64,000 nucleotides of DNA, taken from NCBI GenBank assembly GCA_027422505.1, contig JAPQWV010001324.1, forward strand, positions 1 to 64,000. Direction: 5' to 3'. Made by a program: the position numbers and the translations under genes. A model generated the notes under the pieces. The model had not been told where the DNA came from. It made no database searches and saw nothing but the letters and a program-made list of their open reading frames with translations. Positions within the stretch are counted from its first letter, which is position 1; every line of letters begins with the position of its first letter. Below are positions 6,211 to 48,299 of the stretch, piece after piece. The DNA is from Craterostigma plantagineum (lineage: Eukaryota > Streptophyta > Magnoliopsida > Lamiales > Linderniaceae).

Positions 6211-6652
6211 TAGGGGTGTTCGTATACCGACCGAAAAACCCGAAAATACCGAAAAGTCGTACAAAAAACCGAACCGAACCGAAAATTAGTTCGGTATTGG
6301 TACATAGGTTAAAATTTTCGGTATTTCGGTTCGGTATAGAATTTTGGTCGGTAATTTCGGTAACCGAATTACAAAATTTTTAAATTAAAAATATTATAGT
6401 ATATTAAATTGAAATAAAACAATATAATGTATATTAAAAATTATATATATATTTAAATATTACAGAAATGTTTTTTTTTTTACTTTTTTATCGGAAATTC
6501 TTTATTTCGGTAAAAACGAATTACCGAAAAAATTTCGGTAAAAAACCGAATACCGAACCGAGAAATGGATCGGTATTCGGTACCTAAAGTAGGTGTACCG
6601 AATACCGAATTTCGGTTCGTTTCGGTACGGTATGTACGAACGAACACCCCTA
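6211..6652. mobile_element. hAT-type MITE with TSD, ACCGAA-rich
   Basis: A 442-bp non-autonomous element. It starts TAGGGGTGTTCG and ends with the exact inverted copy CGAACACCCCTA. The flanking octamers are GTAATGGG (6203-6210) and GTAATGGC (6653-6660), matching at 7 of 8 positions, as expected for the 8-bp target duplication of hAT elements. The interior is made of many short ACCGAA / TTCGGT motifs in both orientations around an AT-rich core. It sits just upstream of the hydrolase gene start at 6067. Confidence 0.88.
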
Positions 6653-11566: not shown

Positions 11567-12882
11567 GCACATTAGCGCTTTCTTTCGTTTCCTTTCGCCC
11601 TTTTTGGTTTCTGGTTTAACCTTTTAACGCCGATGGAGGGAAAACAAACAATTAATTATACAATTACTATTAATAATCGTATTTTTGCACAATAAATCCA
11701 TGTGCTATATAATGTACTTATACAGTTATACTACATTAAGTATATAAAATATAATAATAAAGTAGTAACTGGAGCACACTCTGAATTCTGATGGGTATGC
11801 ATCGAAAAAAACTTAATTTAGCTAAATATAAAATCATATAAAAAGATCAATTTGAATATATTCAAGCAAATACATGAAAATAAAAGCATATCTTACACGT
11901 CAATAAAAATAAATGTAACTTAAGGCAGAAGTAGTTGAAAAATTAAACATTTTTCATAAATAAAAAAACACTAGTCATGTTATTGGTAAATAGTGGACAT
12001 ACCAAATAACAGTTTATATCAATTGTTCGCACTTAATATAAAAGTATAGATAAATATTATATTAAGTGACATGTATAGAAAAATATCAATTGAAATAAAA
12101 ATTAATAACTCAGTAAATATATTAGAAATTTTATAAATTTACCCGTTTTACTGTTTGTACCAATTTTCTCTGTGTTGCCGTACCTATTTATGTAGGTATT
12201 GCGTACCACGTCACGCGTTTATACAGTACCCAATACGGTTCCTATATGGTACTTTAGTGTGTTATATATGATGTACTATTTTCTCAACGTATTACGTACC
12301 AAAATACATTGCTATAGGGTACCTAAATGTGTTATATGGCGTATCTGCGTGTATCAGGTACCTATGCGCAAAAAAGTTATTCTACCAGGTACCTACATAT
12401 AAAAAATATGACAGAGTACTTACTGAATTACAAGTTTTTATGTAAATGAATATTTATGTGTAAAGACCTTATATTAATTGTAAAATATATTAACTAAAAA
12501 TTGAGGGTAAAAACGAGAATAGAAGAATGTCATAATGCAAAAACATACGAGTAATTCATTTCAAAATTTTAAATATTATATATATATATATATATATATT
12601 TCAAAATAATCTAAATTGACTGACAATTTAACCAAGTCACAAGACTTAATAAAAGAGTTATTTCCGCACGCTCTTTGTCTTTGCTGCTTATTAGGTATAT
12701 TTAATTTAACTTTTATATTTTTAAGAATGTAAAAAATAATTTGTAAGATATAAATGACTAATCAAGAATAGTAAATATTTATTATGGTATAAGCAGTTCC
12801 ATAACACGGGTGATTTTAGCCAACTTGATTTAATTAGTTTTTTTATTATATATATTAAAAAAAATCTGACTAATTTATTGAG
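11567..12882. other. Intergenic spacer with a GTACC-rich fragment
   Basis: Mostly AT-rich. Positions 12160-12400 contain many GTACC/GGTAC motifs spaced about 20-40 bases, like those inside the MULE that begins at 12883, so this is probably a relic of a related element. A piece at about 12620-12655 (ACTTAATAAAAGAG) resembles the 5' end of the Helitron family seen elsewhere in the window. A TA-rich run lies at 12575-12600. Confidence 0.5.
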
Positions 12883-13075
12883 CGGGAATCTACACATAAA
12901 TCCCAAATAGAAAAACTTTTCAGCCACTTAGGTACCTTGTCAGACATCTTTTACAGCTAGGTACCTAGTTGAATAAAAATTTTACACTTAGGTACCTAAT
13001 TACCTAAGATTACCAAAATACCCTTATTAAATAGAATTTCATTTCAGCTCTTTTTTTCTCTGCAAAAATCGAGCT
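12883..13075 (+). repeat. Left terminal inverted repeat of the GGTAC-rich MULE
   Basis: Contains CTTGTCAGAC and three TAGGTACCTA-like boxes, ending near TTTCAGCTC. It pairs with 17380-17563 in reverse complement; similarity looks around two thirds by eye, with small gaps. Confidence 0.7.
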
Positions 13076-14029
13076 TCAGCTCGCCGTCGACGACGATATT
13101 CTTGCCGACCAACTTCTTCTGCTCGTCCGGCGCCGAACAAGGATCGAAGAGCCTCTTGAACGTTGGGTTCTCGATTTTGGGGGTTTATTTGTAAGGTAAG
13201 CTTTTCTTTTGGTTAGTGTTTGGTTAATCGATTTTGGGCGTTTGTTCAAGGTTTATCCCAAATCCGGAGCTCAATGCGATCCAAGAGCTCCATATAAGAG
13301 TGGAATGTTAGGATTTGATAGTTATTGAGGCTAATCCATCGAGATTTCGGTTTTTTTTATATAACTTTTACGACGTACCATTTCCTATGAATATTACGTA
13401 CCATTGTATGTTGTTTTACCGTACCTAAATACATTATGCGACACAGTCCGATTGGACATTTATATTATGTAGTATCTTTGTGTATTTGTACAAGTAATCT
13501 GTCTATACGTTACCAAAATGTCCAGTTATGCAGTACCAATCTAAAACTATACACCGTACCATTTTAACAGGTTGCCATATTATCTGAACATATGGCGTCT
13601 GCAAATTCGTTTTGATGGCAGGACGTTATTTGCAATGTGTGAGTATACGAGGGAGTCTTCGTTACTATTAATCAATGAAGCAACGACGCTTATCGATATA
13701 TACGTATCCCTCCAAAGAAGGTGGTCTGATATCGATTCCGGCATGACTCAATAAAGTATCAAGTTCCATTCCAAAGTTTGTACTCGACATTGAAAGAAAA
13801 TACGGATGTTTTCAATATGTGGAAAATACGGACATAATCGCCGTACTTGTACAGAAGCCGTAACGACGTAGCGTCCGTATTTTCCAGTATTTTGTCATTG
13901 CTTTTGTCTCATGACCTTTTTCGGTGTTGTTTTATATGTCTTGGCTCATTCTTTTTGTCAAATGATGCCAGTAAGTAGAAGTTTGTTCAAATGTGTCCAT
14001 ATGATATGGCTCATTGTTTTTGTCCAAAT

Positions 14030-14560
14030 TTGGTACTGTAAAGATGCCGTTTGGTATTGTAATTGATGCACGTTTGGTACAGTATTATGTAAATCTGGTA
14101 TTGTAATTAAGGCCAGTTTGAACCTACGACATGCAAGTTGTACGGTTATATATTACTCTTTGGTACTGTTATTAATGAAATTTTGGTACCCTAAGTCCTC
14201 ACCATTTTGGTACGATAAGAAATGCAATTTTGGTACTCTAAGACATGCAATTTTGGTACCCTAAAAGAAACCATTTTGCTAGTCAGATTATTTGGTACGG
14301 TTATATACAACTACTTTGGTACTGTTATTAATCCCATTTTGGTACTCTAAGACATGCAATTTTGGTACCCTAAACGAAAACCATTTTGCTACTGTATGCA
14401 CATTTGGCACGTAACATGTTAATTTGGTACTGTGATGAATGCCAGTTTGGTACCCTACGACATTCAATATGGTACTGTAAGACATGCAATTTTGGTACTC
14501 TGAGACATGCCATTTTGGTACTCTAAGATATGCAATTTTGGTACCCTAAAATTAAAGTAA
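14030..14560 (+). repeat. Diverged short tandem array, TTTTGGTACYCTAAGACATGCAA type
   Basis: At least fifteen copies of a TTTTGGTAC core occur at about 20-35 base spacing, many followed by CCTAA or CTCTAAGACATGCAA. All are in the same orientation. They lie inside the MULE. Confidence 0.75.
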
Positions 14561-15399
14561 CAACTGGTATTTAAGCCTTGACTATATTCCGTCACAAACG
14601 AAGCATTTCAGCAAGTGTTCACGTGGAAGACAAGGATTAGACATTTTCTGATTTTTTCAGTAATGATTGCACACTTTTCTGACATTTTTCAGTGATGATT
14701 TGAGAGATTTCTGACATTTTCAGTCATGAGTTGGTCAAATTCTGACATACGAGGTATTAAATAATAAAAGTCAGCTCGTCTGACATGTCAGTGGCTTTCC
14801 TAAAATGTTTCATGTCATCAGTAATTTTGGGTACTGCAACCGTGGCTGGTTTGGTACGCTTTAAACCAAAAGATAGGTACCCCTACAAAGACTTTAAGGT
14901 ACGGCGTCCCTTATATATATGATACGTCGTACTAGGGTAGTTTTTCGAGGTCGATCGAAGAACTTTTTCATCTCGAACACCGTAGAACAATAATATATAG
15001 TATGCAATACGTTCAGATCAAATTCGGTGCATTAAACCCGCACAGATGAATTAAATCTTAAAATACCAAGATTCATTGTGAGTATAAGGATAAAAGCTAG
15101 AACATCTACAACATGTTGAATAATTTGGTGAGTGCTAGATCTGTGAACTCGGTGCATTAGGCTTTCCTTTTTTTTCTCGTTCGTTATTGTTCGGCATTGT
15201 GAAAATAACGCAGGACAACGCGATTCGATTAGGAATGTATTCATTTTTCGATCGTATATAACAAATGATACCATATACTTTCAATCTGGGTACCGTAATG
15301 TATAATTCTGGATACCGTCAACATGCAGGTTATGGTAATATAATTTGTAAATGATAAGGTACCTTACTGTGCAAGATAAGCTATCTACTGTACACGGAT

Positions 15400-16000
15400 A
15401 AGGTACTCATATATTCTATTTATGGTACGGGACATATACACATACTGATACGGTTAACCCGCATATTATGGTACTCGTATGTAAAAGATATGGTACGGCA
15501 ATATGAACGACAAGGTACTTCATATATTCTATTTATGGTACACCATATATAAACATAAGGATACGGTTAAACTACATATTATGGTATATGTATGTAAACG
15601 ATATGGTACGTTAATATAAAAGACAAATGTACTTCATATCTTCTATTTATGGTGCGCTATATGTTTACATAATGGTACGGTTAAAGTGCATATTATGATA
15701 TTATTTATGAAAATATAAGGTACGATCACATAAAAACACATGTACTTATAAAATACGGACAATCAAATAGAACTACACAACACAACACAACACCTGGCAG
15801 TAACGTCCACACACAAAAAAACATGCATATTATGGTACTCTTTTATGATGATAAGGTGCGCTAATGTAAAAGACAAGGTACTTCATGTCTTCTGTTTATG
15901 GTACGTTAATATTTATATAATGGTACGGTAAACCTGCATATTATAGTACTCTGTATGTAAAAGATAAGGTACGCTAATATAAAAAATATGGTACTTCATA
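15400..16000 (+). repeat. Tandem repeat with a period of about 112 bp, GGTACTTCATAT type
   Basis: Units begin AAGGTACTTCATATATTC followed by TATTTATGGTAC. Clear unit starts are near 15400, 15512, 15626 and 15875, with a shorter, worn unit starting near 15985. Each unit also has GATACGGTTAA, ATATTATGGTA and a GTAAAAGATATGGTACG box, so the unit itself is built from GGTAC boxes. Confidence 0.75.
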
Positions 16001-16320
16001 AAATACGAACAAGTCTCCAACATAAGATAACTTAAAAGAAATAGATCAACTGGGGCCGTTAACGAAATAGTATCACAACCGCAAAGTCTCTCCAAACAAT
16101 ATCACAACAAGTCTTCAAACATAGCATAAAATAGATCTAATCTAGTCTCCAAACAGTCTCCAAGCATAGCAGAACTACACAACAAACATAAAAGAGAAAG
16201 TCTCCAAACAGTCTCACAACCAAGCCAATAACTTAACGAAATAGATCTAGCATATAACTGACTGTGCTCGTCACGTAAAATGCGAGCAGCCATAGTAGCA
16301 CGATTCAGATCTTTTTTGAG

Positions 16321-16952
16321 GCATTTCTGCAAAAAAGCAAAATTGTTATTAGTACCATTTTATTCACACACTTATAGTAGATCAAAACAGAGAAGGATGA
16401 CAGCTGGAAGAAAGATCATATGAGTTCGCGGTGCCTTTGGTGCCATTTCTGCAAAAACAAAACTGTTAGTGAGTAATGTAAAAAGCAGTGCCATTTATTC
16501 ACACACGGCGTACCAAATTTGCCCAAACAGATGGTACAAATGCATTTGTCATGTAGTACCAATAATCAACATAACGAGTACCAATTCGAAACATAACAAT
16601 ATCCCAAATCAATTGACCAATCCTGATAAATAACACAGACTGACAAATGTTTAGATCATCTCAACTAAATATCGGAAGTCGTGATGAAGATAAACCTGCA
16701 GATGATGATACGGTAAACCTGCAGATTTACGATACTCTAGTGGCCCAGGTCATCTTATGCGAGGCCATCAGATCCCGAACGTAGATAAAAAAAACGCAGG
16801 ATGACACCTGGAAGAAAGTTCAGATCTTCTTGTTCGGATCATTTCTGCAAAAAAGTAAAACTGCTAGTAAGCGGTACCATTTTATAGACACACGGCGTAC
16901 CATTTTGCCCAAACAGATGGTACCAAATATAGTGATCGTATAGTACCAAAAC
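16321..16952 (-). repeat. Three copies of an intron-end / splice-acceptor-like module
   Basis: On the minus strand, modules near 16377-16321, 16510-16441 and 16900-16839 each read about GTGTGTGAATAAA, then a pyrimidine run and TTTTTGCAGAAATG. The second and third share about 115 bp, including CAGATGGTAC and GGCGTACCA boxes. Each looks like the 3' end of an intron followed by a short exon start. The downstream frames do not match each other. Confidence 0.55.
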
Positions 16953-17379
16953 AAATTGACCCCATTCGAAAACCCAAATTGACCCATTCCAAAACCCCCA
17001 AATTGACAACAATCAGTCCACCCATTCGAAGATACACGCACAGCTACCACACTAAATTGAACCATTCCAAGGAAACCCTAATCTAACAACAAATCGATGT
17101 CATTCGAAAAACACGCTGCTATTGTTACGAAATTGCTTAAACCCAACGAATAACGGCAAAATCAAATTAGATACAAGCCTATTGGTAACTGTAATACCAC
17201 TACGAAATGCACTACGTAATGTAATGAAGCGAATGACTTACCTATCTATTTCAGAAGGGGAATACCACGACGAACGAGAACCACGACGTTGAATCTAAGC
17301 AAAAACAAACGGGGTCGATTTCTGGAGAAAGACGCGCGATTTGGGTTGGTTTTGGGATGGTGCTTTTTTTTTTAAGAAC

Positions 17380-17563
17380 GAACGTGAGCTGAAAATAAGA
17401 ACTAGGTAAATGATGTAATAAATCTGTTTTATCAGGGTAAATTCGTCAGTTAGGTACCTATCAGTAAGATAAAATTCAAGTAGGTACCTAGAGAAAAATA
17501 AGTCTGACAAGGGACTGAACTGTTTAATTTTATTGAATAGGTATTTAGTGTAGAATCCCCTTT
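17380..17563 (-). repeat. Right terminal inverted repeat of the GGTAC-rich MULE
   Basis: In reverse complement it begins GGGGATTCTACACTAAAT and carries CTTGTCAGAC and two TAGGTACCTA boxes, then reaches TTTTCAGCTCACG, matching the layout of the left end. Confidence 0.7.
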
Positions 17564-17848
17564 TTTATTGAGACGAATTTACAGTTTTATCATACTATAA
17601 AGTCCTTTTTTTATCCTCAAAATAAACAATAAAATACATCGAACCATAGGCGTTAGTTGTATTCAGGCGTCATTAAAAGTCGTAAATGTCAAGAGTTTCG
17701 TGCCAACGAAATTCGGAAGGGGATAAGGTAGCAACGGCGAGGAGACGTTTTTGCAAACGCCGCTTTTTTCACTTCCTTCCTTCCTTCCTTCCACCATCTC
17801 TGAGATTCGTGAGAAATCATCGAAGCCGAGGAGATATACAGTTGAACA

Positions 17849-24906: not shown

Positions 24907-25404
24907 ATGGCAGAGAAAACCCTAAAAATGCTAAAACTCATGGCAATCTTTTCCTACTTATTATCATTTCTACTACTAACCCTACATTGTCAAAGCGCCT
25001 TATCTTTCGAATACGATGACAACGATGAAGAAGTGTACGTAATCGACTCAATCTCATCGAACAGAAGCTTGAATGATGCTAGAAGAAGCAGATTCTTGAT
25101 CACTTCTTCGAGCGTTAAGACAATAAAGAAGGGCCTTCGTTGCCAGGCAGATTATTACAATCCCTGCAATGGAGTTTCTGCTAATAAGGGAAAGAGCATA
25201 CTTTACTGCTGTAAGAAACATTGTAGGGACGTTTTCGCAGATCGAAATAACTGTGGAGTTTGTGGGCGTAAATGTAGTTTGGAATGAAGGTGCTGTGGAG
25301 GAATCTGTGTTGATGTTTTTGGTAACAAAAATCACTGTGGTAAATGCGATAAGAAATGCAAAGATGGGGCTAAGTGTTCTTACGGATTCTGTGGTTATGC
25401 TTGA
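24907..25404 (+). CDS. STIG1-like cysteine-rich secreted protein (copy 1)
   Basis: STIG1 family members are small secreted Cys-rich proteins of stigma and other tissues, some reported to bind phosphoinositides or kinase ectodomains. Single exon, 165 codons. The N-terminus MAEKTLKMLKLMAIFSYLLS plus FLLLTLHCQSALS is a clear signal peptide. The Cys-rich domain follows: ADYYNPCNGVSANKGKSILY, CCKKHCRDVFADRNNCGVCG, RCCGGICVDVFGNKNHCGKC, CSYGFCGYA. A stop (TGA, 25285-25287) interrupts the domain after RKCSLE. Adding one T before TTGGAA and removing one G from AAGGTGC restores the family pattern (SFGMKCCGG), and total length stays in phase. The break is thus a compensating -1/+1 pair within about a dozen bases. 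Confidence 0.85.
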
Positions 25405-46904: not shown

Positions 46905-47545
46905 ATTTTATTTATTTATTTATTTGGATTATTTATTGGTATTATTTATTTGTATTATTTATTTGGATTATTTATTTGTATATTTTATTTATATTATTTA
47001 TTTGTATTATTTATTTGGATTATTTATTTGTATTATTTATTTGTATATTTTATATTATTATTTATTTGTATTATTTATTTGGATTATTTATTTGTATTAT
47101 TTATTTGTATTATTTATTGGTATTATTTATTTGGATTATGTATTTGTATTATATATTTGGATTATTTATTTGTATTATTTTCTTGTATTATTTATTGGTA
47201 TTATTTATTTGGATTATTTATTTGTATTATTTATTTGTATATTTTGTTTATATTATTTATTTGGATTAATTATTTGTATTATTTATTGGTATTATTTATT
47301 TGGATTATCTATATGTATATTTTATTTATATTATTTATTTGGATTATTTATTTGGATTATTTATTGGTATTATTTATTTGTATTATTTATTTGGATTATT
47401 TATTTGTATATTTTATTTATTTTATTTATATTATTTATTTGGATTATGTATTTGTATTATTATTTGGATTATTTATTTGTATTATTTATTGGTATTATTT
47501 ATTTGGATTATTTATTTTTATATTTATATTCGAAACGGAATAAAT
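46905..47545 (+). repeat. Satellite of TTATTTGGAT / TTATTTGTAT decamer-like units
   Basis: About 640 bp of TATTTATTTGGATTATTTAT and TTATTTGTATTATT variants. Because no unit contains a stop in two frames, it opens artificial frames of 212-258 codons made of Leu, Phe, Ile, Tyr and Cys. These are not taken as genes. Confidence 0.9.
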
Positions 47546-48150: not shown

Positions 48151-48299
48151 CTCAACGATAATAAATAATACACATAAATAATACAAATAAAATAAACCAA
48201 TAAATAATACACATAAATAACCCAAATAAATAATACAAATAAATAATATAAATAAATATATAAATAAAATATACTGTAACTAAAGATTAAAAAAAAAAA

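Follow-up and report, generated by a model that had tools for sequence, protein, structure and literature searches.

A Mutator-like element of Craterostigma plantagineum whose non-coding body is a predicted binding lattice for a protein supplied in trans

Among Mutator-like elements (MULEs), VANDAL21 and VANDAL6 of Arabidopsis carry tandem arrays of short motifs in their non-coding regions, and these arrays are bound by VANC proteins (PMC5735166; statements on cited work, here and below, refer to the available parts of each paper). VANC21 binds YAGTATTAY and the target motifs of VANC6 are AGTTGTCC and AGTTGTAC; in VANDALs these motifs make up tandem arrays that diverge fast and lie in non-coding DNA, which in VANDAL21 means introns, intergenic and terminal regions (PMC5735166). 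Binding of VANC21 to the VANDAL21 arrays accompanies methylation loss over the whole element, and the authors hold that motif density matters (PMC5735166). The element AT9TSD1, unrelated to VANDAL, carries VANC6 motifs and is hypomethylated by VANC6 (PMC5735166). VANDALs have been grouped with elements of other Brassicaceae (PMC6446971), and MURA of maize is said to cause hypomethylation of the terminal inverted repeats (TIRs) of non-autonomous copies (PMC10398659). Here we describe a 4,681-bp MULE (the main element) in a 64,000-nucleotide stretch of the Craterostigma plantagineum contig JAPQWV010001324.1 (the window). It is loaded with GGTAC boxes, and our reading is that it is a non-autonomous MULE whose non-coding body is a predicted binding lattice for a protein supplied in trans; with anti-silencing as the main role of that protein, we give this reading a probability of roughly 0.45. 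The initial annotation of this DNA had called the spread of boxes through the whole body unusual, a view that the VANDAL precedent does not support (PMC5735166).

Two related elements and a common box lattice

By its sequence the main element is a non-autonomous MULE, as had been proposed. The following features delimit it.

12883-17563, unstranded: main element, a TIR-MULE without recognisable genes, 4,681 bp (flanking 9-bp duplication, inverted ends, six-frame Pfam search)
12874-12882, unstranded: left target-site duplication TTTATTGAG, identical to 17564-17572
17564-17572, unstranded: right target-site duplication TTTATTGAG, identical to 12874-12882
12883-13000, plus strand: left TIR with three AGGTACCT boxes starting at 12930, 12959 and 12990, 72% alike to the right end
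17449-17563, minus strand: right TIR with two AGGTACCT boxes starting at 17452 and 17482, matching the left end

On the plus strand of the window TTTATTGAG is found only twice, both times directly abutting the main element; one more copy lies elsewhere on the minus strand. Positions 12884-12999 align with 17559-17450 on the opposite strand at 72% over 116 columns (E-value, E, of 2e-8), and the right end has no intact counterpart of the left end's first box. Both the exact 9-bp duplication and the long inverted ends bear out the assignment to the MULEs. The claim that the element is non-autonomous also stood: its longest stop-free stretch is 88 codons, and a six-frame Pfam search (E<=10) returned a single phage model at E 0.1. 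Neither a MULE transposase (Pfam and protein searches) nor a DUF1985 or DUF287 (VANC) domain (Pfam, six frames) was recognisable within it.

A second element of 403 bp stops 405 bp before the duplication of the main element. A box cluster at 12157-12393, outside the main element, belongs to it; the initial annotation had missed both.

12066-12468, unstranded: small element, 403 bp, with ends GTGACATG... and (inverted) GGTCTTTACAC... (end matches and duplication)
12057-12065, unstranded: left target-site duplication TTATATTAA, identical to 12469-12477
12469-12477, unstranded: right target-site duplication TTATATTAA, identical to 12057-12065
12157-12323, unstranded: block S, seven boxes at spacings of 23, 23, 23, 23, 47 and 23 bp with unrelated flanks (by flank identity, defined below)
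12356-12394, unstranded: two AGGTACCT boxes in the right end, starting at 12356 and 12387

The small element's right end and the main element's left end are 72% alike in a 90-column alignment (E 1e-5). The two ends of the small element are 77% alike over 39 bp (E 0.008), with 50 of 86 columns identical overall, and ACACATAAAT is common to the termini of both elements. The TTATATTAA pair was not among the 12 duplication candidates listed under an ungapped end-similarity requirement. We accept it as a duplication because it is positioned where the end alignment predicts; the chance that two 11-position windows in the AT-rich stretch around it share a 9-mer is about 0.003. Both elements therefore carry the 9-bp duplication and the long TIRs of a MULE. 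The small element is the one relative of the main element found in the window, and a diverged one; the term family thus stands here for two elements. Other matches of the element ends within the window are short and weak. The interior of the small element is mostly lattice. Both box directions occur there on one lattice, which suggests that spacing, and not direction, has been kept.

We compared box counts in the main element with 200 dinucleotide shuffles of the same sequence. GGTAC occurs 46 times (shuffle mean 3.8, maximum 10; about 12-fold) and GTACC 26 times (mean 3.9, maximum 10; about 7-fold). The palindrome GGTACC is present 15 times (mean 0.75, maximum 4) and AGGTACCT six times (mean 0.05, maximum 1). 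The GGTAC count, a check suggested in the initial annotation, is thus far above all 200 shuffles. The other 59,319 bases of the window, with the small element counted in, hold 29 GGTAC and 36 GTACC. After GGTAC the next base in the main element is T in 16 cases (GGTACT), C in 15 (GGTACC), G in 12 (GGTACG) and A in three (GGTACA).

The change of box orientation along the element, which had been reported before, is real and block-wise. With the 15 palindromic GGTACC boxes set aside, the 42 directional boxes form 5 orientation runs where 17.3 are expected, and 0 of 10,000 shuffles were as low. Leftward boxes come first (five, 13375-13556), followed by 30 rightward ones (14033-15991); the final seven (16352-16943) are leftward except for one.

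Spacing was measured on the 66 GTAC-centred GGTAC or GTACC boxes between 12157 and 17484, with both elements pooled. We found that 36 of the 65 neighbour spacings are 21-24 bp, while random sets gave a mean of 2.4 and a maximum of 9 in 2000 sets. Twenty other spacings are no larger than 130 bp. Of these, 12 come close to multiples of the step (43-47, 68-69, 112, 115) and four, of 29-31 bp, belong to the ends, which leaves 39, 39, 62 and 86 outside both classes. The remaining nine gaps exceed 130 bp. Within the main element the interval 8-21 bp downstream of each box is free of exact GTAC, boxes are never less than 22 bp apart, and boxes with one mismatch also show a spacing peak at 23 bp. Three consecutive GGTAC at 21-24 bp steps match 19 times in the window, always within the two elements, and 0 times in 100 shuffles. 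The best period fell between 22.00 and 23.15 in all seven blocks tested, with a common best period of 22.55 bp; five blocks had a periodicity power that 0 of 300 random sets reached, and for the remaining two roughly one set in 300 did so. In the TIRs, unlike the interior, the box is the palindrome AGGTACCT and the spacing is 29-31 bp. The internal blocks of the main element are as follows.

13375-13560, minus strand: block A, five boxes reading GTACC on the plus strand, spacings 23, 23, 112 and 23 bp, best period 22.55 (flank identity above chance)
14032-14545, plus strand: block B, 17 boxes in 23-bp tandem units TTTTGGTAC... (tandem repeat, flank identity above chance)
14830-14902, plus strand: block C, four boxes at 23, 23 and 22 bp with unrelated flanks (flank identity at chance)
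15289-15994, plus strand: block D, 17 boxes in higher-order units of about 113 bp, each of five steps (repeats, periodicity, flank identity above chance)
16352-16947, minus strand: block E, nine boxes, mostly GTACC on the plus strand (flank identity at about chance)

Block E consists of a single box at 16352 and two clusters, 16510-16582 and 16873-16947, with periods of 22.6 and 23.0. The array coordinates of the initial annotation were reproduced to within tens of bases, and the arrays themselves are present. Their division into several distinct types did not hold, since all share one 22-23 bp lattice, a common spacing that had not been recognised. The 112-bp units at 15400-16000 exist and amount to five lattice steps, and the TTTTGGTAC array has the same step with better-kept spacers, so neither is a separate type.

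Two further repeats of the main element are free of boxes. One, at 14644-14748, consists of tandem 31-32 bp units with TTTTCTGACATTTTTCAGT. The other, at 16952-17112, repeats at 22-23 bp, close to the lattice step, with CAAATTGACCCCATTCGAAAACC as an example of its units; these are perhaps former lattice units that lost the box.

Selection on the boxes and what may bind them

Flank identity was taken as the mean over the 22 bases flanking the boxes within a block, for which composition alone predicts 0.291. Blocks S (0.290, 21 pairs), C (0.288, 6 pairs) and E (0.308, 36 pairs) are at about this chance level, while B (0.544), D (0.408) and A (0.391) are above it. Lattice slots are nevertheless filled: seven of the eight slots in block S hold GGTAC or GTACC and the eighth (12273) retains GTAC, block C has 4 of 4, each cluster of block E has 4 of 4, and block A has 5 of about 9. 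In S, C and E, then, flank likeness has fallen to roughly the chance level, but the boxes and their step have been retained; we read this as a sign of selection on box and spacing alike. Three of the four element ends, leaving out the box-less left end of the small element, were also aligned. In that alignment, runs of 9 invariant columns occur only at two TAGGTACCT blocks; two such runs appear in 36 of 20,000 column shuffles.

From this pattern it is likely that the boxes form a binding lattice for an element-encoded protein. In the mechanism that we propose, an autonomous relative would supply a sequence-specific DNA-binding protein in trans. The protein would read the GTAC-core box, GGTAC in one orientation. 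Each box would seat a single unit of it, so that units follow one another at 22-23 bp, close to two helical turns, along some 3.5 kb, and the same protein may also sit on the palindromic TAGGTACCTA-like boxes of the TIRs. By analogy with VANC its action could be anti-silencing, in which silent marks are removed and the element stays accessible and mobile. That this would be the protein's main role we rate a little short of an even chance. We infer all three of these: protein binding, origin of the protein in a partner MULE, and the anti-silencing role.

Several observations weigh against this reading. The argument for constraint is built on few boxes and blocks from two elements, and the clusters of block E are partly duplicates (16781-16949 matches 16377-16562 at 72%), and do not count as independent cases. 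Box columns of block D are barely more alike than the rest (0.86 vs 0.76), a difference reached by 20 of 115 rotations. This test used four of the five copies, aligned without regard to boxes and with the partial copy omitted, and counted four box-like consensus sites, a fifth core that is split by an alignment gap being omitted. Because the difference is not significant, selection is not demonstrated in block D. Not every end box is conserved: where the left end has its first box, the right end reads AGTCCCT and the small element AAGTACTC, and the left end of the small element has zero boxes. VANDAL TIRs are described as degenerate (PMC10398659), whereas those here are recognisable, if diverged, and carry palindromic boxes. 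The CpG observed/expected ratio is 1.06 in the main element and 0.99 window-wide; because it is near 1 across the whole window, the undepleted CpG of the element is uninformative on methylation, and we rejected an inference of hypomethylation from base composition.

In the main element the searches also found no coding source for such a protein; the lone phage match is not a credible domain. At about 13597-13870 we had suspected a transposase remnant, from peptides that by eye resembled MULE transposases (SIKYQVP...NTDVFNMW, with a zinc-knuckle-like CGKYGHNRRTC in an overlapping frame). Pfam zf-CCHC_2 reached only E 0.23-0.26 there (11.6-11.7 bits against a cut-off of 27). A protein search with the SIKYQVP frame gave 42 candidates, none with E<=1, and the zinc-knuckle-like frame gave no candidate. 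With no search backing for these peptides we claim no coding remnant. A second gene, suspected on the minus strand of the main element, was likewise supported by no search.

The strongest rival holds that the boxes are transposase-binding sites, with MULE transposase loading along the element and the arrays raising recognition specificity and transposition rate, an effect already suggested for inverted ends rich in repeats. It accounts for the boxes nearly as well as the lattice reading because those common to the three ends, TAGGTACCT palindromes, sit inside the inverted repeats. There is precedent for repeated sites near ends: the 145-bp TIR of Muta1 contains a 12-bp subterminal repeat in 9 copies and, among mosquito MULE families with long TIRs, 10 of 12 have subterminal tandem repeats (PMC5225508), the THAP domain of the Galileo transposase binds several sites in its long TIRs (PMC3688188), and MURA binds a motif of ~32 bp in Mu elements (PMC3310237). 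However, most boxes here are interior, some as far as about 2.3 kb from the nearer end, and the end boxes are 29-31 bp apart, unlike the internal ones, although one protein could still do both. We consider this rival possible but on the doubtful side.

The arrays could instead be functionless minisatellites that slippage enlarged within a dead element. Blocks B and D clearly arose by tandem duplication, box-less tandem repeats are also present (14644-14748, 16952-17007), and the result for the block D box columns suits neutral repeats. Under neutral decay, however, S, C and E would not be expected to keep box and spacing beside chance-level flanks, and one box and step recur in two elements. 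A neutral minisatellite accounts for B and D but not for S, C and E, and as an explanation of the whole it is improbable.

That the element recruited a transcription factor of its host to drive its own expression, for example an SBP/SPL protein with GTAC-core sites, is very improbable. The SBP-domain consensus is NNGTACR, in which C is frequent at N and A at R, and the MIR156B promoter has repeated GTAC cores (PMC3520712). But NNGTACR fits 30 of the 67 GTAC sites in the main element (either strand) against about three in four by random flanks, CGTACA occurs once among the 67, G is the favoured base ahead of the core and T, C or G behind it, and the arrays lie kilobases away from the element ends.

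Because the lattice is regular, its binding unit is easily defined and testable as a 23-bp oligonucleotide, with the 403-bp member as a small natural substrate.

Leader-like exons and other features of the window

Three further rows concern possible transcripts of the main element.

13030-13195, plus strand: possible promoter and leader exon of a left-end transcript, donor AAG/GTAAGC, intron from 13196 (read by eye)
17242-17400, minus strand: possible promoter and leader exon of an inward transcript from the right end, donor ATAG/GTAAGT, intron from 17241 downwards (read by eye)
16310-16869, minus strand: three acceptor-like copies of TTTTTGCAG/AAATG, with plus-strand CTG at 16327-16329, 16449-16451 and 16845-16847 (direct repeat family, splice reading by eye)

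These suggest two inward-facing leader-like exons with good splice donors. If the exons are real, block A and part of block E would lie in introns behind promoters of the element. The CpG observed/expected ratio is 1.53 in the left leader-like stretch (14 CpG in 171 bp) and 1.71 in the right one (12 CpG in 17236-17400), against 0.99 for the window; these ratios draw on 14 and 12 sites, and there are 1-kb windows elsewhere that exceed them.

Outside the two elements, a small GGTAC/GTACC cluster at 6299-6628, CGGTATTCGGTACC...GTACCGAATACCG, is palindromic and off the lattice; it is perhaps another small transposon. Positions 24907-25284 encode a STIG1-like protein (Pfam Stig1) with five matches among seven candidates, of which the four named, from Sesamum (two), Primulina and Erythranthe, are Lamiales proteins with 52-61% identity; this one gene suggests that the host belongs to Lamiales. 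At 46907-47527 and 48160-48271 there is a 13-bp tandem array of TTTATTTGTATTA (48 copies) with a shorter inverse-unit array nearby, and the same region has 33-bp repeats with TTTCGGTC. Rfam at gathering thresholds gave no match in the window.

Comparison with known systems

Maize Mu elements make a 9-bp target-site duplication, and the main element shares with MuDR/Mu this duplication and long TIRs. The two genes of MuDR are convergent, with their promoters in the TIRs (PMC3310237), and the two leader-like exons suggest a like arrangement. A difference is that MURA binds the ~32-bp motif, and the available text of PMC3310237 reports no body-wide box lattice for Mu. With Muta1-type MULEs the main element shares repeated short units near its ends, and there too many non-autonomous derivatives are found; however, the 12-bp units of Muta1 have 3-4 bp spacers and lie inside the 145-bp TIRs, whereas here boxes fill the interior (PMC5225508). 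Galileo is similar in having several sites in internally repetitive ends, which there are transposase sites; it belongs to the P-element superfamily and has two additional sites, in contrast to dozens on a lattice here (PMC3688188).

Viral sequences were also considered as relatives. The end signature TAGGTACCTN18-24TAGGTACCT matched 12 viral stretches, about as many as rough arithmetic expects by chance, and we do not regard them as relatives. The sole one examined, IMGVR_UViG_3300021400_000131:164-321, holds nine TAGGTACCT boxes at steps of 15 or ~30 bp. It is probably unrelated to the element, but similar in design and with the same palindrome.

By analogy the main element most resembles the motif arrays of the Arabidopsis VANDAL elements. 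It shares with VANDAL21 and VANDAL6 the MULE class and dense same-orientation arrays, region by region, of one short motif in non-coding DNA (PMC5735166, PMC10398659), as well as growth by tandem repeats and fast divergence (PMC5735166). Some VANDAL21 arrays lie in introns and upstream regions (PMC5735166), as block A and part of block E would if the leader-like exons are real. The motif differs, GGTAC here and YAGTATTAY or AGTTGTMC there, and the lattice step here is 22-23 bp, while the available text of PMC5735166 gives no spacing figures for VANDAL. No VANC gene was found in the main element by six-frame Pfam search. It is unlikely, though conceivable, that an asterid MULE family, independently of VANDAL, turned nearly its whole non-coding body into a 22.5-bp lattice for a chromatin-opening protein of its own. 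On that reading, 403-bp derivatives with ends, lattice and little more would show that lattice plus ends are the minimal selfish unit. Anti-silencing that is sequence-specific and acts through arrays of motifs is described for the VANDALs of Arabidopsis, and among the papers listed in our literature searches those that treat VANC in title or abstract concern Arabidopsis. If the GGTAC boxes work in a VANC-like way in a Lamiales plant, the strategy either arose again or is older and wider.

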